A stretch of DNA of 64,000 nt from Acholoe squamosa. Lineage: Eukaryota > Annelida > Polychaeta > Phyllodocida > Polynoidae. A model generated the notes under the pieces. It ran no database searches and was not told the origin of the DNA. It saw nothing but the letters and a program-made list of their open reading frames with translations. A program made the position numbers and the translations under genes. The DNA lies in NCBI GenBank assembly GCA_949317995.1, contig OX439040.1:73567972-73631971 (forward strand), in the 5' to 3' direction. Below, one piece after another: positions 3,310 to 51,700 of the stretch (position 1 is its first letter; every line of letters begins with the position of its first letter).

Positions 3310-5335
3310 TTTTACTACAGTAATTTAACAACATAGAACCTAATGACAAGGACATGGAAAAATGTCATTAGACATGATTATATCCTAAATTCGTCATGTG
3401 ACACTCAGATCAGTGACAAAGACATGGGATAATAGTAATTTGACGTGTGACATGGAACCTAGTGTCAAGAACGTGGAGAAAAATAACATGAGACATGATC
3501 ATATCCTAAATTCGCCATGTGACACTCAGATCAGTGACAAAGACATGGGATAATAGTAATTTGACATATGACATGGAACCTAGTGACAAGGACGTGGAGA
3601 AAAATGACATGAGACATGATCATATCCTAAATTCGCCATGTGACACTCAGATCAGTGACAAAGACATGGGATAATAGTAATTTGACGTGTAACATGGAAC
3701 CTAGTGACAAGGTCATGGAGAAAAATGACATGAGACATGATCATATCCTAAATTCGACATGTGACACTCAGATCAGTGACAAAGACATGGGATAATAGTA
3801 ATTTGACGTGTGACATGGAGAAAAATGACATGAGACATGATCATATCCTAAATTCGCCATGTGACACTCAGATCAGTGACAAAGACATGGGATAATAGTA
3901 ATTTGACGTGTGACATGGAACCTAGTGACAAGGTCATGGAGAAAAATGACATGAGACATGATCATATCCTAAATTCGCCATGTGACACTCAGATCAGTGA
4001 CAAAGACATGGGATAATAGTAATTTGACGTGTGACATGGAACCTAGTGACAAGGACATGGAAAAAAATGACATGAGACATGATCATATCCTAAATTCGCC
4101 ATGTGACACTCAGATCAGTGACAAAGACATGGGATAATAGTAATTTGACGTGTGACATGGAACCTAGTGACAAGGACATGGAGAAAAATGACATGAGACA
4201 TGGTCATATCCTAAATTCGCCATGTGACACTCAGATCAGTGACAAAGACATGAGATAATAGTAATTTGACGTGTGACATGGAACCTAGTGACAAGGTCGT
4301 GGAGAAAAATGACATGAGACATGATCATATCCTAAATTCGCCATGTGACACTCAGATCAGTAACAAAGACATGGGATAATAGTAATTTGACGTGTAACAT
4401 GGAACCTAGTGACAAGGTCATGGAGAAAAATGACATGAGACATGATCATATCCTAAATTCGACATGTGACACTCAGATCAGTGACAAAGACATGGGATAA
4501 TAGTAATTTGACGTGTGACATGGAGAAAAATGACATGAGACATGATCATATCCTAAATTCGCCATGTGACACTCAGATCAGTGACAAAGACATGGGATAA
4601 TAGTAATTTGACGTGTGACATGGAACCTAGTGACAAGGTCATGGAGAAAAATGACATGAGACATGAGCATATCCTAAATTCGCCATGTGACACTCAGATC
4701 AGTGACAAAGACATGGGATAATAGTAATTTGACGTGTGACATGGAACCTAGTGTCAAGGACGTGGAGAAAAATGGCATGAGACATGATCATATCCTAAAT
4801 TCGCCATGTGACACTCAGATCAGTGACAAAGACATGGGATAATAGTAATTTGACGTGTGACATGGAACCTAGTGACAAGGACATGGAAAAAAATGACATG
4901 AGACATGATCATATCCTAAATTCGCCATGTGACACTCAGATCAGTGACAAAGACATGGGATAATAGTAATTTGACGTGTGACATGGAACCTAGTGACAAG
5001 GACATGGAGAAAAATGACATGAGACATGGTCATATCCTAAATTCGCCATGTGACACTCAGATCAGTGACAAAGACATGAGATAATAGTAATTTGACGTGT
5101 GACATGGAACCTAGTGACAAGGTCGTGGAGAAAAATGACATGAGACATGATCATATCCTAAATTCGCCATGTGACACTCAGATCAGTGACAAAGACATGG
5201 GATAATAGTAATTTGACGTGTGACATGGAACCTAGTGTCAAGGTCGTGGAGAAAAATGACATGAGACATGGTCATATCCTAAATTCGCCATGTGACACGC
5301 AGATCAGTGTCAAAGAGATGGGAAAAGCTATGTAC
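3310..5335. repeat. 121-bp satellite array with a 705-bp higher-order repeat
   Basis: The word AAATTCG recurs at 3387, 3508, 3629, 3750, 3850, 3971, 4092, 4213, 4334, 4455, 4555, 4676, 4797, 4918, 5039, 5160 and 5281. The intervals are 121 bp except two of 100 bp (3750-3850 and 4455-4555). The short units lack the same 21 bp. They lie 705 bp apart (5 x 121 + 100), and private variants such as TTCGACATG recur at the same offset, which defines a higher-order unit. An extra 121-bp unit is inserted in the second copy near 4756. The open frame at its 3' edge is not a gene. Confidence 0.95.
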
Positions 5336-9816: not shown

Positions 9817-10176
9817 TAACTATGCTTGGGAGTGTAGTAAGTTGACTTGGGGATCAACATTGACCCACATGGGGAGGACCAATAGGGAATGGCCTTACAA
9901 AACAGCATTGATCCCTTCCCAGTCAACAAAAAAACGTTATTTAACGTCAAAAAACGTTTTAAAACGTTTTGCCATGATAAAGAGCCATATGGAAACGTTC
10001 TGAAACGTTTTGCAACGTTTTTTGTTGACTGGGTTGGTTGATGTACCTGACACCCGAGGCATTCGGAGTACGGCCAAGGGATCAATGGTGGTTTGTAAGG
10101 CCACCCCCTATTGGTCCCCCCCATGTAGGTCAATGTTGATCCCTGAGTCAACTTACTACCCTCCCAAGCATAGTTA
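9817..10176. mobile_element. Foldback element with arms of about 100 bp, carrying a nested foldback
   Basis: The left arm (9817-9917) pairs with the right arm (about 10077-10176) at roughly 90% identity; for example TTGGGGATCAACATTGACC pairs with GGTCAATGTTGATCCCTGA. Between them, 9918-10033 starts CCCAGTCAACAAAAAAACG and ends CGTTTTTTGTTGACTGGG, a second inverted-repeat element rich in AACGTT. No transposase frame is present, so both are non-autonomous. Confidence 0.75.
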
Positions 10177-12900
10177 GTGAATACTTTAGCCCATATTGTG
10201 TCACATATCATGACCTATGTTTTATAGAGGAATGTATAGAATTACAAACTATCATTGTGGAAAGGCCTAAATACAAAGCCATGATTATAATGAATATATA
10301 TAGATCCCCAAACAAGGACATACAGATATTTCTAGATAGGTGGGATTTTGCCATAAAAAGAGTAGATCGTGACAAATATGAGCTCTGGGTGATTGGGGAT
10401 CTAAACATCAATACAAGGGATCGAAAAAGTATAGGTGTGAAAAACCTATTTGATAAATGCAGAGAATATAAAATAAAACGACTTAATGAAGAGATAACCA
10501 GGCCCAACGAGCACATCAATGGAGGTACTTGTATTGATCACATAATCACTGATTGTGAAACGGCAAGCCACTCTGGGGTATTAGTGTGCCTAATAGCTGA
10601 TCATTACAATGTGTATGCATGTTGCAAGAAACCCAGAGAGACTCATGTGGAATTAAGATTCACTGGCAGATCATATAAAAACTAAATAGCAATGACTTAA
10701 GCGAATATCTCAGTGACCTGGATTGGACCGATTTCTATGATAGCACTAACCCTGACTTCCAATGGGACTTCATACAGACTAACCTATTATCCTATCTAGA
10801 TGTCACTTGCCCTGTCAGAACTGTCAAAGTAAAAAAAAGATCAAAACCTTGGGTCAATAGTGAAACAATTGAATTAATTAATGACAGACAACTTTTATTA
10901 CTTGAATTACAAAGAACAAATGACTGCATGACTCTAAAACAAGTCAGAACAATGAGGAATCAAATACAGCATCAACTTAATAATGGTAAAAGTGAATTTG
11001 TATTAAACTTACTTGAAGAAACGATCACTGATCCCTCAAGATTCTGGAGAGAAGTGAATGAATTGTTAAATCCTGTTAAAAAAAATTAAATATACAGTTA
11101 ACCAATGACTTAACAGGGGCAATAATCCCCAAAGAGGAGACAGCTAACTATATCAACTCATACTTTGCTAACATTGGGAATGATCTCTTTTCTAAACTGC
11201 CACAGACCGGATTACTTATTGATGAACCAGTGATTGAACATGACCCGCGTGATATCGATCTCCATGAATTGGTGAATAGAGATGAAGTAATAAGACAAGT
11301 AAAAAATATTAACATTGGCAAATCTAGTGGCATAAAGGGGTTGAGTAGCAGAGTCTTAAAAGATGCACTATTATTCTTAATCGATGAATTAGTAACCATC
11401 TATAGGAACTCAATCAATGAGGGTACATTTCCCATCGCATGGTCCAAAGGAACCCTAATTCCAATACCAAAAAAGGGAATCTGAACAGTATCAAAAATTG
11501 GCGCCCGATTACCCTACTACCATTACCGGGTAAACTACTTGAAAAAATCATCCATACTTTACTTAGTAAACATCTAGAAGAAGCCGATATCTTATGTGAT
11601 AACCAATTCGGATTCCGACCTGGAAAGGGTACGACTGATGCTGTCTTCCATGTGTTAAAAGACATTTATGACAATATTGATGATGGCCTCATAACTGTGG
11701 CATGCTTCATTGAATATTGTAAAGCGTTTAACAGTGTAAATCATGTAATACTGAGAAGAAAAATATGTAACCTAAATATCCATGGAAAAATAAAAAAATG
11801 GCCCACAGACTATCTTGGGGTTCCACAGGGTTCAATTTTGGGTCCATTGTTATTTGTCCTATTCATTAATGACTTACCTACCAGATTGCAGTATTGTAGA
11901 TATGCGATGTATGCTGATGACGTCATCATCTATATTAGTGCTCGGTCTCAGGATGCAGCTATTGCCTTATTACAAAGTGATTTGGATCACATACATGAAT
12001 GGTGTAATGAAACTCAATGACGGTTAATAGAAATAAATCAATGTGCATGCATTTTGGCTCGGCCCACAAATTAAAAGACCTCCCTGACCCTATATTGGAC
12101 TTTGGTGGAACACCACTGCCTTCTTGCAAAACATATAATTACCTAGGTGTGGTACTAGATCCAAGACTAAATATTAACCCACATATTGGTAAAGTGAAAA
12201 AGTCACTAGGTAATAAACTATACAAATTTAGTAAGCTACGCAACGCAATGACTAAGGAAGTGAGTATTGAGATATATAGAACAATTATAAGCCCTGTCCT
12301 TGGTTACTGTTCATTCTATATCGGTAGTGGACAAATTGCCGAATTACAAAAACTACAGCGAATGCAAAACTCTGCACTACATACTTGCTTAAAGCAGTGA
12401 ATCAGAGATATAGGTATTGACGAGCTACATAATAATTGCAAGATAGATAAATTAGAATGTAAAAGAAAAATCCAGCTATTAAATATTATGTGGAAAAAGG
12501 CTCATAATGGTGAGGTGATAAACGATATTAGAATTAGAGGGGACCGCAAAATGAAGTTTGTTAAAAGGCGGGCTCGGACCACATTCTATCAAAAATCTCC
12601 ATACTACAGAGGTGTGGAATTATGGGACCTTTTACCTGCCGATGCACAAAGGCTATCAACCAAATGTCGTTTTAATAATGCACTGAAAAGATTAATTACC
12701 TGATAAAGAAAAAGAATATTGTCACACTACATAACTGCCATTGTGTCACAAATGCACTGCATCAATTCATATTGAATCATAGTATATTGATATACTCATA
12801 ATCCAGCTCTTCTAATTACAGCCTTCTACTTGTAAACTGTAACTGGCTGCGGAAAAACGTCCCATTGGGACGAGTACGCTAATAAATTCAAATTCAAATA
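10177..12900 (+). pseudogene. Broken non-LTR retrotransposon: endonuclease plus reverse transcriptase
   Basis: The 5' part (about 10224-10683) matches the C-terminal half of an APE-type endonuclease: ELWVIGDLNI, then TCIDHI and DHY. The next segment carries reverse-transcriptase landmarks: NWRPITLLP, DNQFGFRPGKGTTDAVFHV, GVPQGSILGPLLFVLFINDL and the catalytic AMYADDVI. Breaks: frameshifts near 10680, at the A-run near 11082, near 11472 and near 12016, and an in-frame TGA at 12398-12400. The last segment stops at 12701-12703. Motif A reads FIEYCKAFNSVNH with Glu where catalytic Asp is expected, and roughly 25-30 residues appear deleted just before GVPQGS. The 3' UTR ends with a CGTCCCATTGGGACG hairpin (12858-12872) and an AATAAATTCAAATTCAAAT tail (12881-12899). 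It is a CR1/Jockey-type element by motif order; the exact clade is not assigned. It is 5'-truncated and cannot be active. Confidence 0.85.
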
Positions 12901-17464: not shown

Positions 17465-17765
17465 CATGGGCGTGGACTGGTTACCAGATTTAGTCTGTGT
17501 AGGTATTATCCATATGCTATAGTAAGGGTGAGAAAGTAAAGGGAACAGTGCTGCCCTCTGGTGCCTTTATTTGCTATGCACAGACCTTGATTACGGAGGT
17601 GAGGGGTTACTTTGGCAAAGTCACCACTCACCTCCGTAATCAAGGTCTGTGCATAGCAAATAAAGGCACCAGAGGGCAGCACTGTTCCCTTTACTTTCTC
17701 ACCCTTACTATAGCATATGGATAATACCTACACAGACTAAATCTGGTAACCAGTCCACGCCCGTG
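17465..17765. mobile_element. 301-bp near-perfect palindrome with 8-bp target duplication (hAT-like MITE)
   Basis: 17468-17603 pairs with 17627-17762 without mismatch. Pairing continues inward almost to the centre at 17615 with two mismatches. The ends read CATGGGCG and CGCCCGTG (imperfect inverted repeats). The 8-bp GTTCTACT flanks both sides (17457-17464 and 17766-17773). An 8-bp duplication and CA(N)GGG-like ends are hallmarks of hAT elements. Each arm holds GCACCAGAGGGCAGCACT (17666-17683, and its complement at 17547-17564), close to the CTCF consensus. Confidence 0.8.
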
Positions 17766-19009: not shown

Positions 19010-20515
19010 ATATTAGGGGTATGAGTAGTGTATGGAAAGAGTGGTATGCTGCAGGTATTGGGGGTGTGAGTAGTGTATGGAAAGAGTGGTATGCTGCAGG
19101 TATTGGGGGTGTGAGTAGTGTATGGGGGTGTGAGTAGTGTATGGAAAGAGTGGTATGCTGCAGGTATTGGGGGTGTGAGTAGTGTATGGAAAGAGTGATA
19201 TGCAGTAGGTATTGGGGGTGTGAGTAGTGTATGGAAAGAGTGATATGCAGTAGGTATTGGGGGTGTGAGTAGTGTATGGAAAGAGTGGTATGCTGCAGGT
19301 ATTGGGGGTGTGAGTAGTGTATGGAAAGAGTGATATGCAGTAGGTATTGGGGGTGTGAGTAGTGTATGGAAAGAGTGGTATGCTGCAGGTATTGGGGGTG
19401 TGAGTAGTGTATGGAAAGAGTGGTATGCTGCAGGTATTGGGGGTGTGAGTAGTGTATGGAAAGAGTGGTATGCAGTAGGTATTGGGGGTGTGAGTAGTGT
19501 ATGGAAAGAGTGATATGCAGTAGGAATTGGGGGTGTGAGTAGTGTATGGAAAGAGTGGTATGCAGTAGGTATTGGGGGTGTGAGTAGTGTATGGGGGTGT
19601 GAGTAGTGTATGGAAAGAGTGATATGCAGTAGGTATTGGGGGTGTGAGTAGTGTATGGAAAGAGTGGTATGCTGCAGGTATTGGGGGTGTGAGTAGTGTA
19701 TGGAAAGAGTGGTATGCTGCAGGTATTGGGGGTGTGAGTAGTGTATGGAAAGAGTGATATGCAGTAGGTATTGGGGGTGTGAGTAGTGTATGGAAAGAGT
19801 GGTATGCAGTAGGTATTGGGGGTGTGAGTAGTGTATGGAAAGAGTGGTATGCTGCAGGTATTGGGGGTGTGAGTAGTGTATGGAAAGAGTGATATGCAGT
19901 AGGTATTGGGGGTGTGAGTAGTGTATGGAAAGAGTGGTATGCTGCAGGTATTGGGGGTGTGAGTAGTGTATGGAAAGAGTGGTATGCTGCAGGTATTGGG
20001 GGTGTGAGTAGTGTATGGAAAGAGTGGTATGCAGTAGGTATTGGGGGTGTGAGTAGTGTATGGAAAGAGTGATATGCAGTAGGAATTGGGGGTGTGAGTA
20101 GTGTATGGAAAGAGTGGTATGCAGTAGGTATTGGGGGTGTGAGTAGTGTATGGGGGTGTGAGTAGTGTATGGAAAGAGTGGTATGCTGCAGGTATTGGGG
20201 GTGTGAGTAGTGTGTGCAAAGAGTGGTATGCTGCAGGTATTGGGGGTGTGAGTAGTGTATGGAAAGAGTGATATGCAGTAGGTATTGGGGGTGTGAGTAG
20301 TGTATGGAAAGAGTGGTATGCTGCAGGTATTGGGGGTGTGAGTAGTGTATGGAAAGAGTGGTATGCTGCAGGTATTGGGGGTGTGAGTAGTGTATGGAAA
20401 GAGTGGTATGCTGCAGGTATTGGGGGTGTGAGTAGTGTATGGAAAGAGTGGTATGCTGCAGATATTGGGGGGGGGTGAGTAGTGTGTGCAAAGAGAGGTA
20501 TACAGTAGGTGATTG
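19010..20515. repeat. 45-bp minisatellite, about 33 units, with a 559-bp higher-order repeat
   Basis: The unit begins GGTGTGAGTAGTGTATGGAA and ends TGCAGGTATTGGG. Truncated 19-bp units (GTATGGGGGTGTG) occur at 19121, 19590 and 20149. The private variant AGGAATTGGG occurs at 19522 and 20081, 559 bp apart (12 x 45 + 19). Because 45 is divisible by three, minus-strand frames of up to 532 codons arise by chance. Confidence 0.95.
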
Positions 20516-21740: not shown

Positions 21741-24700
21741 GTAGGCTGAGTGTTGTTAATATTTCTCATAAAGGAACCTTCTTGGGAAGAAAAACCGTAC
21801 ACGTCTTTTAAAGTTTTGAAAGGTTTGGGTAAAAAGAAAAATGTTTGTAAATGATGTTTTTGTTACACCCCAAAAAGAAACAACTTCTATAAACGGTGTC
21901 AATGTCAAAACCTTTTTAATAGTGCATAGAAAAACAAAATTTTAACGTCTCCATAAACGGTAGCTGAACTTGGAAACGAAGGAATAACCTTTTCCATACT
22001 ATGTTCTATAGGGGATTCTTTAGTGGCTATTGCCAATGCAAACAAACAGAACACGCTAAAAGAGAGCTACAGAAGGTTTCTGATTGTAGACTAAGAACAT
22101 GTGCAAGCACTGTGGCACAATGTAACGTCATAGCAACCATTAACTTATATTTTCCTTCTTATAAGGTACAATGTTTCACCAACTATGTCAAAATCCTGTA
22201 CATGTATTAAATACAAGTCTATCAAAAACACTGCCATGAAAATAGTAGTAGGACAGGCATTATTTTCACGTGTATGTTGCAGATAACACCCCGTGTGTGG
22301 AGGTTCAGCTTGTAGGTGTAGGACAGAGTCCAGGAGCAGCTACAGAGTACACCAAGACCAGCATAATCACAATATCAGCCACAGTCAGTACAGCATCATG
22401 TACCACCACCGCACCACAACTAGACTACAGCTGGACAATTACTGATTCTGTAAGTTAATATCCACCATTGAATTCAAAGAAGATTCATGTCCGATTGAAC
22501 ATAAGGCAGTCTCAGAGGGTGCTTGTGCACTGGGATATTTACCATGCCCAATTGTTGTTGTAATGCATGAATGCAGCATTGGCAAATACTCGTGACAACT
22601 GCATAAATGCATCATACCAATTGCATTGGGCTGAAGGGACCAGAAGGGACCAAGCAGCATTCCGACCTAGCGGGATAGAGGTGGCGCCGTAGTGTCTAGC
22701 TAAAGCTGGTCAGCAGCATGTGCTTTACACTGGTTGTAGGGTACAGTTATGTAATACCTGGTGAGAATCCACTCTGTCCCACCCTACACACAGAAGTACT
22801 ATTAATACTCATTAATTAACACAGAGTGGCTTAATAATATAAATACAAGTTTAAAGGTATGGTTAGTGTGGGTTATCACTCATTACACCTTCAGGTGTGG
22901 AGTCTTCACACCTCCAGGTGTGGAAACTAACCCATCTATAGAGAGGCTTCTTGACCCCTGAAGCTGCAAATCTCGCGAGAATGCATGTTAATTAGGCCTG
23001 AGCTGGTAGCTGCAGTGTAGTCACACCTGCATGCACTACCAGCATTGTACTAGCACCCACTGGTAAACATACAAAGTCGGTATTGGTCCTCAAGGACCAA
23101 TCACTGATCAGTCTGACCTTTCTCAACCTGTCTGTAATGAGCTCAGGACCAACATATGTAACTCTACACACCTCCATCAAAAACGATATCATAAAGCACC
23201 CCAAAACAGACTCAAAAGCTATCTAAACAACAAACCATTCAGGCTATTGAGGTTTCCCATAATACACTCTGTTCATGGAGGTTAACTACCATAATTACGT
23301 CAGTCATGTGACCTGCACTGGCCAATGGCATTGGTCACGTGACTGACATACTTATGGTAATTAACAGGAAATCTCCACAAACAGAGTGTATTATAGGAAA
23401 CCTCAATAGCGTGAATAGTCAGATTTATAAAAAGTCTGACATCTTTTCCCCCCACCAGAGTCAACAGGAAATACAGCTTTCCCAAAATAAGGTAACATCC
23501 TCTCAGGAGGAACTGGAAATGTTGAAGAACTTCTTAGAAGTTGGCAGCTATGACGTCACCTACACCACATGGTACCCAGATGTAGCTGATACCCAGGTGG
23601 TTGTGTCAGGTTATCTGACAGTGACGTCCAGCCCCCTGAGGGCTGCCATACAGGGAGGTCACAAGGTCACAAGGTCTGGCTCGTTTTTACTAGATGCTAC
23701 AGGCAGCCAGGACCCGGATGTCTCAGGTGAGCTACTCAGGGGCACATTTCACTTTTGAAAACAAAAATGAAACAACCTACCATGTCCCATATTAAATTTG
23801 AAAAGTACTCAACACTTTAAGGCTGTCACTCGTTTCCTTTTAAGAACTGATGGAGTGTTGCTCCATTCAGTTTTTATGGTTATAAGAACACAATAGAAAC
23901 CTAAGCAAACATACCCGTGAGTGTCGTTGATCTTTAAAGCCCCCATGTCTCATTAATTTCTAAAGCGTAAATTATTAACTTTTCTATTTTTTTTTGGAGG
24001 AGGTGACCAGGGACTGGAGTACACTTGGTCTGTTGTCATGGTAACAGGAGGTGACAACACAGAACTGTGTACAGGACAGGCACAGGGTGGCACCTACAGG
24101 TAGGTGGTTTAAGGTCTGTTGTCATGGTAACAGGAGGTGACAACACAGGACTGTGTACAGGACAGGCACAGAGTGGCATCTACAGGTAGGTGGTTTAATG
24201 TCTGTTGTCATGGTAACAGGAGGTGACAACACAGGACTGTGTATAGGACAGGCACAGGGTGGCACCTACAGGTAGGTGGTTTAAGGTCTGTTATCATAGT
24301 AACAGGAGGTGACAACACAGGACTGTGTACAGGACAGGCACAGGGTGGCACCTACAGGTAGGTGGTTTAAGGTCTGTTGTCATGGTTGCAGGAGGTGACA
24401 ACACAGGACTGTGACCAGCACAGGCACAGGGTGGCATCTATAGGTAGGTGGTTTAATTTATGTTGTCATAGTAACAGGAGGTGACAACACAGGACTGTGT
24501 ATAGGACAGGCACAGGGTGGCACCTACAGGTAGGTGGTTTAAGGTATGTTGTCATAGTAACAGGAGATGATAACACAGAACTGTGTACAGGACAGGCACA
24601 GGGTGGCACCTACAGGTAGGTGGTTTAAGGTCTGTTGTCATGGTTGCATGAGGTGACAACACAGGACTGTGTACAGGACATGCACAGGGTGGCACCTACA

Positions 24701-27700
24701 GGTAGGTGGTTTAATGTCTGTTGTCATGGTAACAGGAGGTGACAACACAGGGAGGCACAGGGTGGCACCTACAGGGAGGTGGCTTGGGAAAGTCCTGGGG
24801 CCTGTTACTCGGACATACCCACCGCTAAACAGAATGAATGGCATCTGATTAGAGGAAATTGGGTACGAAATGATCTGAGATTTTAGAGAAAAAAGTATTC
24901 CAACCGTTTTATACACTCTAAGAAATGACTGCTGAACTACCGGGGATCCTCATAAAATTGGACTGTGAACCATATAAATCTAACGCCGTGAAGCGGTCAT
25001 TTTCTACAATGAAGCCCCAGATGCAGTAAATCACTGTTTGAAAAGAAAGGTTTGTAAAAATAACAGTGAAATCATTGTCCCAAACGTTACCAGTGAACCG
25101 CCAATAATTTGATGGCACATTTTTACAGGGTTGATAGATAAGAAAAAAGGGTATTCAAACTATACTATTGTATTAAATGCATTTCTACATTGGCTTAATT
25201 AAGATCAGCATTATATTCATACACCTACTGTTTCAGTGTTAACTATGTAGCAGAGATGAAAGGGTTAGTGTGTGAATACACAGTGGAAGTTACAAAAGGT
25301 GACAGGAGTGCTACAACATCTACCACAGTCACACTAACAGGGCCCTCTGCACCTACACTCAGCCTCAGGTAAGGAGGTACACCAACTTTTGGTTATCAGT
25401 GTGTGTTTTATTAAACTCTACAATAGTGAATTATTCATCGTTCAACTGTTATAGCCCCCCCCCCTCCCTGAAAAGGGATTGGTTTATATGCAAAGATAGC
25501 CTCAGATTCTTTTTTTATTGGATTATGTGTACAATTAAGGCAGTGTGTCTCATAGCCAATATATTTTCATGCAAGTATTCTCTTTGCACTCATCTTATCA
25601 AAAAGAATTGCTTGCTTCTTGAAATAACATTTATAGGCCTATAATTAGAACCAATAGTATTGGTTTTAATTTGATTTGCACGCTTGTGTCAAGTAACCAC
25701 TATACAATATAATAATAAGAAAATTGATTTTCGATGCCCAATTTACTGATACAATTATACTTATCTTACACTTTTTTATTCTCAACAGTATTGTTGGTGA
25801 GAATTCTAAAGATGATTGTGTCAAAGTGCACCTGGTGGTGAAGCTACAAACCACGTGCAGCCCAGAATGTTCGGGTTATAACTGGTTTGTAGAGAAACTC
25901 ACCCAAACAACACAAGGTGGCACAGATGTATCTGTGGACATCACTAAACAGGATGGTAAGAGTTATTTTGTAATGACCTACAGCTAGAACATATATATCT
26001 CTGGAGGGCATTTCTCAAGATGGTATGACTGCACATATCTACTACGATTTGAAACCATCAAAATTAGAGTGGGCGATCATAGGTAATGCACTATGACTGC
26101 TCTGTATGGTCAGCACTTATTAGAGAAGTTGCATGGTTTGGTAGGGCAGTCATACCAGTAAAATCATTAGTGACCACTAGATTCAGGGCTGTAGTGGCAT
26201 CAAAGTGAGGGCATCTTTAGAAATGCCTCCCAGAGGGTTGTATACTCCTTATCCTCTAATACTATGATATTGACCATTGACTCGCCACTTTGCAAAGAAC
26301 CGTATTTGTAATTATTTTTTCCTTTTACCCTAGAATAAAACACAGTATCATTTCTAGGTAAAAAGACCTTTCTACCAAACGAAGGTTTATAGATTTTTTT
26401 CGTGCGTTTTCTTTTTCTTTCATAAAGGTTTCGATGTTTTAAAAAGTCTTTGGAATAAGAAAACACTTAAAACAAACAATGTTTTTCATCCATCAGTGAG
26501 AGGGTGCCTGGCACGGATCCATCCTGATCAGATGGTGGGTAACACCGAGTACATAGTAGGCGTGACCAGTGGTGAGGGATCAGTGGAGGAGACCTTCTAC
26601 ACCTGTCCTGTCCCTAAACTAGGGCTTTGTACTACAAACATACAACAAGGTAAAATAGTGCCTGATATTATACAAATGATGTCTTTACTCATGTGTGGTT
26701 ACTAGTTGAAAGAACTAGTGAATTGCAGAAATAAGTACAATTCTCAGCAATTTAGCCTAACTTGTTACGTTCAGAGGCCTTTGTTGTTTTTTTTTTTTTT
26801 TTTTTTGGGGGGAAGCTTTTTTTTCTGAATTGAGAAAAGAAAAAGAAATTAATTTTGGTCTCTCTGTATAAAATTCTAAATTTCCAATCTACCAAGCTAC
26901 CCCTGCTTAAAATAACTAAAAAAGAATTTTCATCAAAAATAGATGTTTTTTCTCTCTCCCTGATGGATCTAAAAATCCACCCTCTGGATTGTTCAGGTGT
27001 AGCAGTACGCGACTGGTTCCAGGTGACGTGTGATAATTGGTTCGATGATGACTTCCCGGATGACCCAAACACCCGCCTTTGGTACTCTGCCTGGTATTCA
27101 ATACCTGATGGCGATCCTGACCAGGTAACCTTCCCACTTGGCCAAAAGAAACATCCCTTTTAAGTTCCAAATTCTCGAAACGTTTCGTCTAAGTGTAAAA
27201 AATATGTGTACTCAAAAAATGTATAATTGCAAAAGTTATCAATGGTTCTATAAACATTTAAAAACATTGAGAAAATGAACGTTAAACATTTTATTATGTT
27301 CAAATAGGTTCAAAAACAAGTTCTTCATTATGTTCTCATTACGTCAAAAGGGTTTGTTCGTGAAGAAAAAGTAATTAATGCTGGCAACCAGATTTGGATG
27401 GTTCATTTAGTTGTACAAAAACTTTCCAAGGCTCACTGTAAAAATAAAATTGTTGAATCCACAAGGAATCTTTGTAAAACTGAATGGCGAACCACTGTAA
27501 TTGTATTGCAGTGAAACCAGTGTAGCTTTTACAAGAAGCCCCAGGTGGCAGTACAGTATTACAAGGAAACTCTGTGGAAATAACGACGGATCTCTGGCAA
27601 TGGTGGGACAAGGATTCTGCCATTATTTCAACATTTTCTAAAGTGTTGTACATTTAACCATTTGGTGATTATAGACTGCATTCTAAGATTTCTTGTTATT

Positions 27701-33700: not shown

Positions 33701-36700
33701 CACGACGCACATAAGATTTCCCACCCACCATCACCCAATTTAATTACTTTTATATACATTATCCAGTTGCACAATGACACTTCTATGGAGGAGATGGTTT
33801 GTGCCTGCACCCACCTCACACTGTTCAGTTCTTCCTTTGTGGTACCCCCGAATACGATCGACTTCAGTACAGTGTTCGACAACCTGGACCAGAAGCTTTT
33901 GGAGAACATTCATGTCGTGTTGACAGTTATTGGTATTATTGTTGTTTATGCTGTGGCTGTTGTGTTCTTAAGAAGGAAGGATAAACAGGACCTCATCAAA
34001 GTAGGTTCAATATTCCCTCCTTGAATGAGGATTTTCATTTTTGGCTTTTACCTATCATACATGTGACTAGTAATGACTGATGCTCTGTTTTCTATGTTAT
34101 AAATCTTTACTGTGCACAAGTTTGCTTTTCTCTTTAGTAATGACCGATGACAATTAACCTTTAGAAGCTTCTTGCAACGCGATGTTTTCAATGTTCTTGT
34201 TATACTATTATCTGAATAGCACACGCACCTTAGACCAAAAAAAAGAGTTGTATTTCCAATTACCCGACCGACCCTAGCGAAACAGGGCCGACCCTAACTT
34301 TTTTCTTCTTAAGCACTGGTTCCACAGGCATAAAATCGGTCGGACTAGCCCTAATCCGATGATTTATAATATATCAAAAGTATAGAAAAAATTGGTCGGA
34401 TTAGTAATAATCCGACCGATTTATGTCTGTGGAACCAGCACTTTAATTTTGAGAATTTTTAGGAAATCTTTCACATTTCTTTACAATTTTTCATGTTTTT
34501 TTTTTCCGTTTTAAGTATGTTCATCAATATTTTTATGGGTCTTGAATCCATAGTTTAACATGCAGATCTTTTTTCACCATTCTCATATTTTTCATAGGTA
34601 TAGCATAATATACCCATACATTTATATACAAAAAAAATCTGACCTACTGACCCTAGATATTTGAGGCATGTAACTCGAAACACACAATATTTTTTTGGGC
34701 CTTAGTATAGATAGCATTGAACTTTTGCGAGCTTTTAATACAATTTAGTATTCTTTGAGTTCACCTTCTACATACATGTGAGTAGTCAATCATTAAGAGT
34801 TACTTTTTTCCTACTCAATTTCTTTAATCTTCAACTCTTCTATAATCGGGTATATCAACTTTTTTTCCACAGTGGGGTATAGCACCACTGGCAGACAATT
34901 TACCTGATGACCGTATTGACTACCATCTTAGTGTACATACAGCCCCTCGGAGTGGGGCAGCCACCCGCTCTAATGTCTACTTTGTACTAGCCGGGGAGAT
35001 GGGGGAAACTTAGGTCCGCAAACTGGAAACTGTACGCAAAAAGGTAAGTCTAGAAATTATGTAAAACTCAGGTCGATGGGACATTTGAGTTTGCTCCCAC
35101 TTGGGAAAAAGGTTATGAAACAGTATTTCTGGGTTCAAAAGTTTTGCTAGAGAAGAGATGAAAACGTTTCCAAGTTGAAAAACGTAATTTGTCAAGATGT
35201 GACCACTTGGCATAAAAACGTTTTAAAGTTCAAAAAAGTTTTCATTTTAGATTAAAAAAAAAACGTGTTTTCTTTGATATAGCAAAGACGTCACTTAAAA
35301 ACGTTTTTTTTTCAACATTGAAAAGCCTAACATGAAAACATGTTAGAAAAACGTTTAAAACGAACGTTTATCACCTTCAGTTTTGAAAATATCTTTTACC
35401 CAAACATGAAAAAAAAAATTGCAATCGTCAAAATTCGTTTTTGCTAAGTTAGAAATGAAGTATCTATCAAACGATTTTAATTTTTTTGAAACCTATTACG
35501 AACGTTTCCAAACACTCAATCATGATTGACAACGTTTTTTGGACACAACCCAAACCTATTTCAAAGGTTTCAAAATATTAAAAAAAACGTCTTTTTTTCC
35601 AAGTGGGCTGTAGTCCTTTGACAGTCTCCTATATATCATATTAGCTTATATTCTGCAGCTTATATCTTAATATATTTCAGCGTCTAACTTGTGGCAGTGT
35701 ACACCGCTAAAACTAAGTGTCCCGGAGTCCTTAGGCAGCCTCCTATATATCATAGTAGCTTCGAATTTTTTTCCAGCTAATATCTGCTTATATCTTCCAG
35801 CGTCTAACTCGAGGCAGTGTACACCGTTACATACTGAGTGTCCCAGAGTCCTTAGGTAGCCTCTTGTACATCCGGGTATGGCATGACAACACGGGGCGGG
35901 GACGGAATGCCTCCTGGTTCCTAGACAGGGTCGTTGTACGGGATGTTGCCGCATCAGAGAAGTAAGTTTATTAAGCAATGACATGAGTCGCTTGTATATT
36001 ATCAAAGTCAAATGATATCAGGGCTTTGGTAATAGGACAAAAGCTTGAACGTATTTCATTTTGGTTTAAACAAAAATTGATGTACAAGATACTAAAAAAA
36101 ATATGTTAATAAGGAACAATTTCAAGGAATGTTTTTAAAATTTTCTTTCAGAACACTTTTCTTCCTTCCCAAACATTTTCTCAAATAATTTGCACTAATG
36201 ATATTCAATTAAATTTTCACCTAATCAGACTTTCATAATATGTAACAATATATTTAGACATAGCAATCACAGTAGTATATACATACTTAAGTAAAGCAGA
36301 TCAAAGATTAAGATTCTAGTCTGAGCGCTCATAGACCATGGGTATATTTCACTATATCTGACAATCTGAAGATTCACTGTCAATTTGGTAATCTAACTGA
36401 AGAGGGATGCTGTTGTCAGATATTCCTCCCTAAGTTTGTTCCCTATGTCACCATCATCATATAGGATTTGGTAGAGTAGTCGTAGCACTGCGGGCACTGA
36501 TGCAGGTCACTATGATCAGCACAGTGAGTTTCTGAACAGTTATTGGCCTATATTGTCTTCAGGGATGTTGAAATAGTCCCCAGGGGCAAGTGCCACAAAA
36601 TGTAAAACTCACTCCTTACTGGTATCCAATCATTCAGGTATGTCTTCCTGTGTAACCGCTGGCTGGCCGTGGATCATGATGATGGACAAATCGAGCGGCT

Positions 36701-42700: not shown

Positions 42701-45700
42701 AAGCCTAAGAAAAGGAAATATTATAGAAAGCGTCTATCAAATCTGTTTTATGTTTCTTTCATGTAAAACACAATAGAACAAAACGAAATCCAGAAAAAAA
42801 CGTATTTAAGCATGTTTAAACCGTTTTTAAGGGCACACAAACATTTTCAAAACTTATAAACGGAAAAGAATGCCGTTTTGAAGTAAAAAAAGAAAACTTT
42901 CTATCCCCTTGACTCACTGCAGATCACCGAGTGCCATATAAGCAGAAGGAGATGGATGACGACCACCTGGAGAACATGCGGATTGCGCGCGTGAAGGAGC
43001 TGCGGATGTTTGGTATCTGTAAGGAAATTACCATCTATGTCATTTACCTGGTACTCATCTGTGTGCTCATCTACGACAGCCGCGACCCAAACTCATTCAG
43101 AACTAAGCAAGAACTGAGCAGCCTCTTCAATGTAGACAAGTTTAACAAGGTAAGTATTACAACAATATGCAGTTCCCTATAATCTGTAAGGAGATATCTA
43201 TTATTACTTTTATCCATAATTATCCTGTAACTTCATCATCTTAAGTTGAACACAGCAGCCCCAACCAAGGGGCCTATACCGCACACTAAGTTGCAGCACC
43301 CTAAATGGTATGGCCACATAACATTTTTTTCACCTACTACGTACCTATATTGAACTTTACGCAAAAAGTGGCTTCTACCTCCTGAGATAAATATAAATAT
43401 ATTCATCCCTGGTAGGTACAGAGCATTGACTTGACTAACACTGGTTAAACAATATTGATTCCCTCCTTTGTGCCCATTGGGATATTGTTCTGACTACCCA
43501 GCAAGCATGTTCACATGTTCCACATATGGGAGCTTTTTGAGCTGTCCCAGATGGGCTCAAGCTTGTAAATGTCTGGGCTGTCGGACAGGTGGGGTCCAGT
43601 TGGTCTCAGCCCAGAAGCAAATATCTGGGCTCAGCCCATCTTGGCCCAAACTGGCAGCCAAGATATTTATCATCTTGAATTCACGTCTGGGCTAGCACAG
43701 AAAGCCCAGGAAGTCATTTCTCAAACCCAAAGATTACAACCCTCCCAAATCGTACCAACCTGGCCTGGATCGGAAGTGTATTCTTGGTTACACTGGGTCA
43801 ATCACTATGAGTGGTGCAGATATAGAGGGAAAAGGCATGCATCTGAATAGCCAATCTAGGTATTACATGATCACCCAGGGTCAATCACTATGAGTGTACT
43901 GGATCATAAGGGGTGTTCAATTCGTAGTGACCAGTCTCAATTCGTAGTGTTTGAGAAATACCTAGCAGATCATTGACCCTATGTGGGGCCTATGCGGACG
44001 TGCGGGCTGGGAAGGGTTTATCTGATGAGGCTTACTCATTTGGTTTCCTATTGTTTGCAGGAAGGTAACCAAGCCCGGTTGTTCACATGGATGGAGACAT
44101 ACCTGGTCCCTAACCTGTATGCAGAACGCTGGTACAACGACGACCAGGTGCACTGGCGCCTGGAGTACTTCCTGTCCGACCTGCATTACTTCCGGGTCGG
44201 GTCACCACGCTTACGTTTGGCTCGGGTAAAGCAAGGTCAGAGATTGGTTTGAGTAATAATCTGTTCTGATTGATTTTAAGGCCACCTCTATATCTACACC
44301 TAACATTTTGTTTTAGACAGTTATTGTACAGATGTTTGCTATCATTTATTCAATGACCCAATAGGGTTTAGTAATTTTGCGTCTGCTAAAGGAAAGACAG
44401 GAGAACAGATAAAAATAAAGAAATGACATTTGCCAATATCAGCTCATGGATTATAAGGATTGAGGGTAAATATTTCAAAAAACTGAATTCTTATGAACAT
44501 AATGGTCATAGTTCCTGGAATTGGAATGTCCGTTCCTCAAAGTCAAATGTTTGAAATAGACTACCCTTTTCTGTCTTTTCAGTTGACTGTTTAAGTGTTA
44601 CCACATTAGGAGGAGGTAGATCATCCTGCTACCCCGAGTACAGTGTTACCAGCTTTGATCACATAGACTACGTAGTGGGTTGGATATCATCATCCCAGTC
44701 ACAGGACACTAACATTAGCTCTACCATAGCTGTAAGTATAGCTGAGAAAACATGTATGGAGAAAATATGGCAGGGGCAGATATTGGCGCTAGCCTGGGCG
44801 CCATTGGCTTGTAAGTCTGGCTCCGGCCCAATGTCTTTTCCAGAAATGCCTTCCTAAGGGCACAGGGATTGTTTCGGAGAAACTCATATCACAAGGATCA
44901 TGATATATTTATTGTCATTGGAAAGAGAAGATTACAAGGAAGCTGAGCAATTTATACAAGTTTTGATGTTATCATATCAGTATCAGGTCTTCCGTTAAGT
45001 AGTGAGTGCAGGACTGTACTTTGATGGTCATATTTGGCTGTGATTTTCTGCTCCAATGGGAGATGGGGGGCAAACGATTTTGACCCTCGAGAAGGCAGAG
45101 GAAAAATTATTATTCATAAGTTAGCGTGAAAACCCACTTCCTGAACTCTGTTGTTAAAAGGTGATCACTTCCTTAAATCCACAATTTCCTTTGTACTGCA
45201 GGACACGTCTTCTACCCCGTGGGTGTACAGGAGCACCGTAGACCTTGGAGGAGCTCCCACTCTGGGTAAGCTCACTGTGTATGGTGGTGGGGGCTATGTG
45301 GCTAATCTAGGACCTGATATGGACTCTGCTACTGCTCAGATTCAACACCTTAAAGGTAAATGGACAGATTGATCGGTTTATATTAACACAAACTTGTATC
45401 TTGAAATTGATGTCAGCAAGCTGCAAACAGCGTAATGCAACTGAAGATGTTTTAATGGAAGAGAGCTATAATGAAGCCACCTTCTGATAGGTCTGAGGCT
45501 TAATTGGCGATGTCAAATTGAAGAATGGGGGCAATGACTAGATTACTTCACACGCCCCATGGGAAATGGCCTTTCTTATGTTTTGCAATAGATGCCCTCA
45601 TTCTCTATATAAATTAACTTTTTTCAAATGTTAAACTTCTCACTTTCACTTTTTAGGAAAGGGCTATGTTACATGTCACTTTTTCCCCTCAACATCCTTG

Positions 45701-48700
45701 ACATTTGAGGCGCCTTCTCCCCTGATTATTCTCATTAAAGGCCATAGGTCACCATATCGATTTTAAGAATCCATACCCATGCTATATATGAAATCAGCAA
45801 ATAAGCATAATCATGCCATAAATTCAAAACTACTAACTTTTTACAGACAACACATGGTTGGATCGAGCTGCACGAGCTGTCTTCATCGAGTTCAATGTCG
45901 TCAACCCTACGACCAAACTTTTCACCATGTTAACGTTCAATTCCGAGTTCCCTGCTACGGGCGGCATGATGAACCATGTTAATATAAAGACAATACAGTT
46001 GTACAGTTATGTGGGGGCCAAAGCACTATTTGTCATTATACTTCAACTACTGTTTGTGGCTTTTACTTTGTACTTCATTGTACTAATGGGCAAAAGGATC
46101 AAGGTGGAAGGAAAGGTAAGGTATACTATTTATCTATAATCACCATCAGTTACATTGGATCCCAATTCACATTTTCTTTACGTCAAGAAGAAAAAAGTTG
46201 TTTTAGAAAGGAAAACGTTTGATAAACGTTTTCGAAATTGTTTGAGATTAAAACATAGAAAAAAACTCCTTTCAAGAACAAGGGATTGTGTGTGTCACAC
46301 ACTTTGACATTTTCTGTCCTGTTTATAACACCGTAGACAAAAGTGATAACCTAACTTTAACCAAAAGTAGAAATGACAATTTTTGCAAAGAGATCGAGGA
46401 ATTAATGGTTGGCATCATGACGACCATAGGCACCATACAGAATTGACCTTTTGAAATGTGATATATCTTTGTTTTATTGACTAAGGGAGTGATCATTTTT
46501 TAACAACAGGGGGGGGCTGGTGGGTTTGCACGCGGACGCGCGAAAAAAATTTCGACCCCCCTCTCTCGAGGGGGTAAAATTTTTTTCGACCCCCCCTATA
46601 AGGGACAAAATCGCGCGTGAACGTCCCCTTTTAGCCTATATATATATATAGTAATGCGCGGGGTTTTCCACTGAAAACAGGTGAAATTATTTTGACCCCC
46701 CCATCAGAGGTATTGAAAAAATTCTGACCCCCCCAGTCAAGGGGTTGAAAAAATTCTGACCCCCCCTCAAACCCACCGGCCCCCCCCCTGTTGCTAAAAA
46801 ATGATCACTCCCTAAAGGGAAGTTTGTCAGTCTAAGACAGACAAACTTCCCTTGAAGTAACCATTTTTACAACTTCACACTTTATAGTATGTATGAGTCA
46901 AATATCATTCGACATACATGTAGGATTTTATGTGTGACCATCCGTTTATATGTATATTTTATGTATTTCATTACATTAGGCATACCTAAAGTCTAAGTGG
47001 AACATGTTGGAGCTGGCCAGTATAATAACAGCCTGTGTGACGTGTGTCATGTATGGCATAAGGTTTATTATGGTCAGAACTACCCTCAACAAATTTCACC
47101 AGGATAAAGGTAAAAATGGCAAATTCTTTTAAACATTCTAGTTCGATTTCCAATCAATTCATAACTAATTACTTCCTGATACAGAGAAATGAGAGATCTA
47201 ATCGTTCTGTCCTCCCATGTGTGAAGGTTTGAATGGAATGACATAAATCTGAAAACGGTAAAGCACTGTATGGTCCTCAATAAGATGGGAATTGGTATTA
47301 ATTGTCACTGAAATTCTATATCATGATGTTTGCTATTTGTAATGACCTTCACTCTTTGCTTCTTACAGCTGCGTTCCTGAGCTTCACCTACGTCATCTTC
47401 TATGACGAGGTATACAGCTACGTCCTTGGCTTCCTCGTCTTCCTCGCTATGCTCAAACTGCTGCGCCTTATACGCTTTAACCAGAAAGTAACCGAGCTAA
47501 TGTCAACCCTGGAGGTAGGTGTTGAATAACTTCTCACTTGAAGGTCATTACAAAGTAACTTAGCTTATGATAGCGAGGTGCATGGATGTGTTAATGCCTT
47601 TAATTTCAAGGTTATTAGGTCACTGAGCTCGTGGCACCTCTCAAATTGGTTGCATTTCTGATTTCAACTTTAAGGACATTAGAAGGTTATTAAGCTCATG
47701 TCACTTGCTGGTTCTAGGAGATTTCCCCCCTGGGAATCCCCCCCGGAAATTTCCCCCCTGGAAATTTCCCCCCTGGAAATTTCCCACCCTGGAAATTTCC
47801 CCCATCACTTCTATGTAATACAGATACAGTAAGAAATGACTGCATTTCAATTTTGTTGCGGAATAAAGATTCTTACTCTATTACCAACCTCATCCCTAAC
47901 CCTAACCTTATCCCTAACCCTAACCTCATCCCTAACCCTAACCTTATCCCTAACCCTAACCTTATCCCTAACCTTAACCCGATCCCTAACCCTAACCTCA
48001 TCCCTAACCCTAACCTTATCCCTAACCCTAACCTTATCCCTAACCTTAACCCGATCCCTAACCCTAACCTCATCCCTAACCCTAACCGTATCCCTAACCT
48101 TAACCCGATCCCTAATCTTATCCCTGACAATATTATCCCTAGCCCTATCCGTAACCCCATCCCTCACCCTAATCAAACCATATCCCTTTGCAAACTTGGG
48201 GGGGGGGGTAATTTCCAGGGGCGAAATTTCCGGGTGGGAGAATTTCGGGGGGAGTTTTCCAGGGGGTAATCTCTTGGCACCTCACTGGCTTCATAACAAC
48301 CCTGCAGGTATATATGTATTGAGGGCCTACACTGAAGGTTGCTAGAAGGTCATAGAACTCATGACAATCCTTGAGGTGGATGTGCTATTGACTCAAACCC
48401 GGGGGGGGGGCACTCTCTATGTAATGTATACACATATGTGCGGCTGGCAAGGGTACTTTTTCAAGGAAAAGTCCCTAGCAAGCCTGCTGTTTCAGCCACA
48501 AATGTCCCTAGCAAGGGTCTACTTTTGAGCAAAATGTCCCTAGCAAGGGTCAACTTCCGGCGAAATACCCCGATTCACGCAGAAAATTTAGAAATTTTCA
48601 TGAATATTTTCCAAGTTTTCATGAAAATAGCATGAACAAAATACAATTTTCTCCCAAACAAGGTCATTTTAAGATATTTTGAGCAAAATCTAAGATCATT

Positions 48701-51700
48701 ATGTAAAAAGTTCCCTAAAAAGGGTAGGGTTTGGAAGAAAAAACCCGCGAACAAGTGCCCTAGCAAGGGTAAGGGTAGTCGGGGGTTCAGCCACACACCC
48801 ATATCAAAAAAAAATTGAAGTGCCCCCCCCCCCGGGACTCAAAGGTAACTAAAATGTCACAACCTTCAAAACAACCCTGCGGATAGCTGTACTGAAAGCG
48901 CTGAACTCAAGGTCCCTAGAAGGTCGCAGTGTGGTGACATGTTTTAAGCTGCTAAGTACAATTTTAAAACATAAAAACCTTAAAGGATCAATTTCTATAC
49001 TTCAGGCAGCTGTGCGTCCACTGCTGAATTTCCTAATGTTCTTCTCCATCGTGTACCTGGCTTTTGCCCAGTTTGGCTTCCTCGTGTTTGGCCGGGTACT
49101 CACGGACTACTCCACCATCGTGTCGGCCATAGAGAGCCTCTTCTCTATCATGCTCATGAACTTCAGCTTTGACGACCTCCACTGGTAGGACATATACTTA
49201 CCCACACCCCAGAACTCTTAACACTTGGTTTAATAAGCCTTCCTACCCAGCCCGGACACACCATGGCAATCGACACCATGTTTACCTAAAAACTGAGTTT
49301 TACGTAGAGATCACATAAAAATGATGTAATTGCATGCCGTTTGCTAGCTGGATAACATCATATTAAAGCAAGTAATATCAAATGTAATTAATTAACCACT
49401 TATGTCTTGGCAAAAAAAAAATGTTTTAATTCTTTTAAATTCAATTTGAATCAAAAGAAAAACCTTTTTTGAAACTTTTTTTTCAATGTTCAAAAACTTT
49501 TGGATGTAGCAACACTTCTTTTTCAATTTCCTTTTCAATCCGAGCCATTAGAGCCATTATAAAACCATCTTAAGTAATGTTACAAATAATTTTTATGCCA
49601 AGTGGGTATGTATACATATAATTTCAGTGCTAACCCCGTGCTTGGCCCCATCTTCTTCTTCCTCTTTATCCTGGTGGTGGCTTTTATCGTCATGAACATG
49701 TTCCTGGCCATCCTGAACGAGGCTTACAGCGCCATGCAGGCGTCCAAACTGATGACGTCATCAGACGCTGAAATGGTGGAATACATGCTACAGCAGTTTA
49801 AGGGACTGTTGGGATTTGTTCCGCTACCCAGCGGGCAGGACCAGGATGGTAAGTGGGGAGGGACGGAAGAAATAAATACAGAGAGAAATGTTCTTTTTTC
49901 CCCCGAATTTTTGTCGTTTCCCTAAGAAGGTATTAGAACAAATACACAGAGGAAGAAACAAAACAAACAGAAGGAGGGGGTAAGTGACAATCAGTCGATG
50001 CGAAAGATTGATTGATAGAAAGAGAAAGAGAGAGATTAAGAGAGAGAGAGAGAAAGAGAGAGAAAGAGAGCAGCTATACCCCTTATTGGGCTACGTTGTT
50101 ACATAGGACCCCTAATACAGAGCCTCTAGAAAGACAGAGTGAGTGAGTAATAGATGTTTAACGCCATTTCGACAGCTAAGGTCATATTCATGGTGAGAAC
50201 ATTACACAATTTCACAAAGGAATGTGTCAGTGCCTGTGCATATGTGCACCACACACATCCTGAGGGGATAGGAAAGATGAGAATTAGACCCTTTTAAGTG
50301 GGCTAGGGAAGCCCGAGAAAGACAGAGAAAGAGAGTCGGACAAGAAAAGAAAGATGCTGGTTAAGAAAAAAAAAAGACAGAAAGAAAGAAGAGAAAAAAA
50401 AACAAAAAGAAACTGTAACAGCAAATAATCTGAAAAACAAACAACAAATAATCTGACAAACCACTTTCTAGCACTTTATTAAAGAAGAAAGAAGGAAGAA
50501 AACAACACATAAAGTTCTTGCACTGTCTACTGGCTGCCATGCCTGGCTGCTGCTTGCTGCTGAATGTCCCACTGGGGGGGGGGAGGGTGTAAGAGTCACC
50601 GGGTGAACTGCCTGTTCTACACCAGATGGTATTAGTAGTAGCGTCTTATAAGCTAATAGATGATGCATATCGGGGCCCTAGGGCTGTATATGCTGTATAT
50701 ACCTGAGCCGCGGAGCGGCGAGGGTATATACAGCATATACAGCCCGTGGGGCCCCGATATGCATCACCTAATAGGTTTATACCACCATTTCCTCCATTTT
50801 GTATCAATTTCTTACCTGAAATCCAAAGAATATAGCCAGGAGAAGACATTTTGTAAGTGCAAGCGACACCGCCCGTGTCCGCTCTGCGCGAAGCCATTGT
50901 TTTGGTTCCTTGCCAGGAGAGGTACCGCTGTGTATACAGTCACTTTTCGTATCGAATCCAACCATGACAAGTGTTCAAATTAAAACATACATATCCTTAG
51001 ACATTCTAGATGAGTACTCCATGCTTGATATGTCCAATATATTCAAAATAAATAAGAATCCATTGATTTTCCCAACGTACGCGTGTCGCGGTCCGGCCAT
51101 TCCCACCCGCCTCCTTGTTCGGCGAAAGTGTGTCAGTGGCCCGGATGTAGATATAGGTCAACTGCTCGTCGTACAAGAAAGACGCCGAAACAATGGCTTC
51201 GCGCAGAGCGGCCACGGGAAAATCAATGGATTCTTATTTATATCGAAGAAAATGGAGACAATTAGCACGCATTCCTCGTCTATGGATCGAAAACTTCTTG
51301 GGATTTTGATATTATAACATGAAAAGGTTGGAATGAAGACGAAATCTGACTGCAAACTTAGCACTAGGACCTCAGGTTAGAACTTATTTATTTTCACATT
51401 GTGTTTCATCACCGTTCAGTGTGGCGCTATGGCTAAGGCCTTCGCCTACCACCACTGCGGCCGGGGTTCGATCCTCATACGAGTTGGGACGATTTTTCAC
51501 ATTGAAACAATGGCGAGGCTAAATTTCTATGTCCGCCAGCGTCTCCAAAAATATTCTAAGTCCAACTTGACACCGAAAAAGTATATACCAAAAATTTCAA
51601 AAATGCACATGGGTGGTATATGCAGAATAATGCACGGCTAAACTGCATATAAACCCACCGGAAGTGCCGAAATCGTGGTATAAGAGCCAATAGACAAATA

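Follow-up and report, generated by a model that had tools for sequence, protein, structure and literature searches.

A tandem array of an exon end and its donor site in a polycystin/REJ gene, read as a mirage

Minisatellite-like tandem copies of exon-intron boundaries, termed mirages, have been described in lancelets (PMC3087553). The globin gene BflGb6 carries an acceptor-side mirage with six and three units in its two haplotypes, and the globin gene BflGb9 carries a donor-side mirage (PMC3087553). The Adh3 mirage, as cited in the same paper, has units of 10-72 bp and shows somatic instability. In lancelet PGBD5, repeats of 60 and 108 bp are located at splice sites; the array of 108-bp units adjoins a 5' splice site, and the copy numbers are unequal between two assemblies (PMC3902484). 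Taken over both papers, lancelet mirage units range from 10 to 160 bp and differ in copy number (PMC3087553, PMC3902484).

Regular splicing is apparently undisturbed in the lancelet genes, though many mirage copies retain AG/GT signals (PMC3087553). The absence of aberrant mRNAs from Adh and troponin C is cited in PMC3902484, and normal mRNA is reported for Adh3, the globins and troponin C, whereas it is assumed for PGBD5 (PMC3087553, PMC3902484). The lack of aberrant mRNAs in lancelets could itself reflect decay of those mRNAs. Mirages have also been proposed as a source of introns (PMC3087553). Among the literature matches listed, no other case termed a mirage was found.

The array described here lies in a window of 64,000 nucleotides, by which the whole stretch of DNA that was analysed is meant. 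It begins within an exon that encodes part of a REJ domain in a polycystin-family gene and, by its structure, is a mirage. Its tandem units span an exon-intron boundary, as placed by the reading frame and the REJ match, and AG/GTAGGT is kept in eight of the nine units. The polycystin/REJ gene is thus read as a new gene for a class that is already published.

Anatomy of the array and its gene context

The array was identified by TRF at 24027-24751 with a period of 86, 8.4 copies, 92% matches, 0% indels and a score of 1247. The similarity extends past the TRF end to about 24782, a limit set by eye where similarity ceases (Table 1). The array is composed of eight full units and a ninth with a 13-bp internal loss, and each full unit combines the final 73 bp of the exon with the initial 13 bp of the intron. 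The earlier note had described an 86-bp minisatellite of exon end plus donor in nine units, and TRF and the unit alignment agree with its coordinates and counts; the repetition of the exon end also stands, at an exact length of 73 bp by unit alignment instead of about 70 bp. The eight near-identical GTAGGT donors that it listed were all located by sequence, one every 86 bp. The sequence CAGGTAGGT occurs seven times in the window (both strands), always within the array, whereas 100 shuffles gave 0.46 occurrences on average and never more than 3. A chance repeat is ruled out by this count and the TRF array.

Table 1. Coordinates of the array, its donors and the neighbouring exons in the window
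Feature	Position	Strand	Basis
Upstream coding exon, REJ domain; donor CAG/GTGAGC, end in phase 1	23459..23726	+	ORF and splice signals; REJ match over three-exon join
Exon with first repeat unit at its 3' end	24000..24099	+	Protein continues through REJ
Array of exon end plus donor, 86-bp unit	24027..24782	+	TRF 24027-24751 and unit alignment
Inferred intron, 1137 bp, phase 2, containing units 2-9	24100..25236	+	Frame and splice analysis
Donor 1, GTAGGT; sole in-frame donor of eight to 25237	24100..24105	+	Frame analysis
TAG, read when donor 1 is skipped	24101..24103	+	7 of 7 later donors
Donors 2-8, GTAGGT each (24186, 24272, 24358, 24444, 24530, 24616, 24702)	24186..24707	+	
Dead ninth donor, GGAGGT (CAG/GGAGGT)	24775..24780	+	
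Downstream coding exon, REJ domain goes on	25237..25368	+	Frame and REJ match

The three exons listed in Table 1 give an open reading when joined. The exon carrying the first unit may start at 24000 or, via the adjacent AG, at 24003, and the frame is kept either way. The joined protein matches Pfam REJ in a single stretch (residues 16-181 of 183) with 55.6 bits against a cut-off of 25 and an E value of 4.5e-15; the query was the hand-read protein of the three exons with 16 residues added upstream.

Further domains of the polycystin family were found downstream on the same strand. The ORFs 45145-45369 and 45837-46136 match Polycystin_dom, and the ORFs 47302-47526, 48853-49185 and 49590-49922 match PKD_channel (Pfam). 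ORF 48853-49185 also matches 16 distinct solved sequences of polycystin-2 and PKD2L1. A GPS-like stretch at 33701-34021 scored 14.5 bits (E 0.052), which is under the Pfam cut-off of 22.5. Ten further ORFs were compared with Pfam: two matched, both to Polycystin_dom, and nothing at E 0.1 or below was obtained for the other eight; a PLAT domain was absent from all ten. The order from REJ to polycystin domain to channel fits a polycystin-1-like gene, and we infer that the REJ, Polycystin_dom and PKD_channel frames belong to one gene. A telomere-like 18-bp repeat, AACCTTATCCCTAACCCT, is located at 47886-48169 between two of the ORFs matching PKD_channel (TRF). Rfam gave no matches at gathering scores.

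Other mirages were looked for among 11 distinct TRF arrays between 24 and 49 kb. Only one, the 86-bp array itself, touches an exon edge, in a check that covered the eight edges of four placed exons and is silent on the other exons of the gene. A pattern of 26 bases taken from the junction had no matches in the viral contigs scanned.

Several other repeats and frames are present in the window. A 45-bp minisatellite at 19011-20515 (TRF, 2.6 and 31.2 copies) has units that repeat GTGAGT, and many also GCAGGTATTG, both donor-like on the plus strand; the same interval is open over 500 residues in three minus-strand frames. A large tandem array with units of 121 and 242 bp and nested periods occupies 3331-5323 (TRF). 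Diverged tandem copies about 114-121 bp apart are found at 35598-35872, two of them with an acceptor-like TTTCAG or TTCCAG site, and these may stem from a mobile element or from duplication of a 3' splice site. The interval 17503-17727 is a near-perfect palindrome, of which both strands give nearly one 73-residue frame, and it suggests a foldback element. A row of plus-strand ORFs at 10140-12700 resembles a non-LTR retrotransposon remnant; ORF 11421-12017, the only one of the row that was tested, matches RVT_1 with an E value of 3.4e-29. In ORF 108-695, a stretch rich in Ser and Thr and a putative membrane segment were noted by eye, and TRF reports 2.3 copies of a 66-bp tandem unit at 301-454; no Pfam match above the cut-off was obtained for this ORF.

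Donors and the consequence of donor choice

The eight GTAGGT donors stand in the context CAG/GTAGGT in seven cases and TAG/GTAGGT at 24444. The frame into the next exon is open with donor 1 alone (one of eight) and the REJ match is unbroken across that join, and therefore use of donor 1 is the reading adopted here. Frame and REJ match both favour donor 1 as the authentic boundary. Any of the seven later donors brings the TAG of the first GTAG into the exon, which bears out the claim of the earlier note that a later donor truncates the protein. This stop is located 82, 168, 254, 340, 426, 512 or 598 nt before the junction with donors 2-8. Under the rule for nonsense-mediated decay, a stop more than 50-55 nt before a junction marks the transcript; all seven distances lie beyond that limit, and nonsense-mediated decay is therefore predicted.

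It had also been argued that the array cannot be absorbed as protein repeats because 86 is not a multiple of three. The remark on the unit length is true, and it is not the bar: the stop inside the GTAG of the first donor suffices and would exclude protein repeats at any unit length. A coding in-frame protein repeat was rejected on both points, the unit length and the TAG read in all seven longer forms.

Pairing with the U1 5' end was calculated at -12.9 kcal/mol for seven of the array donors, -11.3 for the donor at 24444 and -8.7 for the dead ninth site. Six of donors 2-8 are thus equal to donor 1 in U1 pairing, and this counts against the use of donor 1. Among 3840 GT sites on the plus strand of the window, eight reach -12.9 kcal/mol, and seven of these eight are in the array. 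In local folding, donor 1 ranks first in openness among the eight live donors in one setting and second in the other, with small differences, and all eight are surpassed in openness by the dead ninth site. Structural hiding of the decoys was considered and set aside, the edge of donor 1 in local folding being only slight. The exon is 100 nt long with donor 1 and 186-702 nt long with the later donors, and exon length favours donor 1. When a donor is duplicated in model systems, splicing often prefers the copy closer to the acceptor; papers by Eperon and by Krainer reportedly deal with this choice. Nearness to the acceptor favours the later donors. As U1 pairing and local folding are nearly equal among the donors, the choice of donor is left undecided by these sequence properties alone.

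Divergence of the units and the competing explanations

Units 1-8 share 86.0-96.5% pairwise identity. They vary in 19 of 86 columns, all of which are among the 73 exon columns, and none of the 13 intron columns is variable (hypergeometric P 0.029). Windows of 13 columns without variation, taken around the circular unit, number three of 86. The invariance of the 13-bp intron part leans slightly towards constraint. The longest invariant run is 15 columns, a length that is equalled or exceeded in 34% of random placements of 19 variable columns. Six-column windows as free of change as the donor number 15 of 86, and nine-column windows as good as the donor number 22 of 86. Selection on the decoy donors has no sound support in these figures, and because long invariant runs are common by chance, no selection on the donors is claimed.

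Against unit 1, units 2-8 have 29 codon differences: 23 alter the amino acid, 4 are silent, and the remaining 2 create TGA stops in the frame of unit 1, one in unit 5 and one in unit 8. A change found in several units was entered once per unit; six of the 23 come from a single site, where unit 1 is the exception. Silent changes make up 26% of all possible single changes in the exon part as against 4 of the 29 differences, so no coding constraint is visible. Units 2-8 look like unconstrained intron sequence.

Minor variants are shared most often by units three apart, with six in five pairs as against two in seven pairs at a lag of one (permutation P 0.010, for a lag picked after viewing six and uncorrected). 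Within 24000-24800, no exact repeat is longer than 75 bp, and the copies of this longest one lie 258 bp apart. Together these suggest that the array may have grown partly by the copying of three-unit blocks. The exon ahead of the array and the intron behind it both contain CTTGG, but the unit junctions read TTTAAGG, so no duplication breakpoint is claimed.

The array is probably a tolerated mirage. A tandem duplication across the exon-intron boundary, comprising the 73-bp exon end and the 13-bp intron start, would have given rise to the minisatellite. The transcript would use donor 1, the original donor of the exon, and join it to 25237, whereas units 2-9 would leave as intron and drift like intron. 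Transcripts from donors 2-8 would mostly be lost to nonsense-mediated decay, and the array would be a nearly neutral passenger with at most a small cost in expression. Array length would be expected to vary, by analogy with the six and three units of the two BflGb6 haplotypes.

A functional alternative makes the tuning idea of the earlier note specific: by competing for U1, the decoy donors would divert transcripts to decay in a proportion that depends on array length, and this length would thereby set gene output. The equality of six of the seven decoys with donor 1 in U1 pairing, the concentration in the array of the window's best-pairing GT sites, the stop at least 82 nt before the junction with every decoy, and the intron part that is invariant in all eight units (P 0.029) speak for this explanation. 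It is nevertheless unlikely: invariant runs and change-free windows of the observed size are common by chance, the ninth donor is dead, the later donors require exons of 186-702 nt instead of 100, openness in local folding is hardly greater at donor 1 than at the decoys and is greatest at the dead ninth site, and the lancelet cases Adh3, the globins and troponin C are reported with undisturbed splicing. The fuller form of the idea, a heritable, length-variable rheostat in which a ladder of equal decoys sends a set fraction of transcripts to decay and unequal crossing-over tunes expression stepwise, is distinctly unlikely. The tuning of splicing or expression by the array found no support in the analysis.

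An assembly artefact would mean that misassembly inflated a shorter array or a plain exon, or that the copy number is wrong. Precedents exist in lancelets, where one case has unequal copy numbers between two assemblies (PMC3902484) and another was aberrantly assembled in a draft (PMC3087553). There is, however, no N in the window, and the 19 variable columns include both private and shared variants; with these differences and no exact repeat above 75 bp in 24000-24800, simple assembly stutter is improbable, and the artefact as a whole is considered very unlikely. It is scarcely to be expected that the gain of an intron or exon is under way, with some units taken as small cassette exons that lengthen the REJ domain. 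Such a model has been published for the lancelet globins (PMC3087553), and the formation of novel introns has been reported for human tandem repeats that lie at exon-intron borders (PMC2812944). A cassette requires an in-array AG acceptor at least 60 nt past donor 1 followed by an array donor, and seven cassettes of 72, 111 or 123 nt that keep the frame and are free of stops are possible. The tracts of the candidate AGs, however, are poor in pyrimidines, with a C or T fraction of 0.26-0.47 where the inferred true acceptors reach 0.84 and 0.68, the REJ domain reads well without an insert, and units 5 and 8 contain stops in the frame of unit 1.

Comparison with known systems

Read as a tolerated mirage, the array enlarges a class of repeats that has received little study and from which new introns have been proposed to arise. 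Seven of its eight serial donors share one nine-base signal at constant spacing, and only the first is usable without truncation. The array offers a natural experiment on spliceosomal choice between equivalent donors, with exon length set against nearness to the acceptor. If the host is not a lancelet, mirages would not be confined to lancelets.

The array resembles the lancelet mirages in that boundary-spanning tandem copies are present, many of them with the splice signal kept (PMC3087553). The repetition is on the donor side, as in BflGb9 (PMC3087553) and one PGBD5 array (PMC3902484), whereas in BflGb6 the acceptor side is repeated (PMC3087553). Unlike the lancelet mirages, it is located in a polycystin/REJ gene and has eight intact donors and a unit of 86 bp. 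The human internal tandem repeats in segmental duplications are likewise border minisatellites described as able to alter the splicing pattern, but they were found via differences in copy number between recent paralogs, have RNA support and have units of about 30 bp on average (PMC2812944). In Drosophila, a tandem duplication that led to intron gain also copied splice signals; the duplicate itself turned into the new intron, whereas in the present gene an existing intron would merely hold the copies (PMC2891723).
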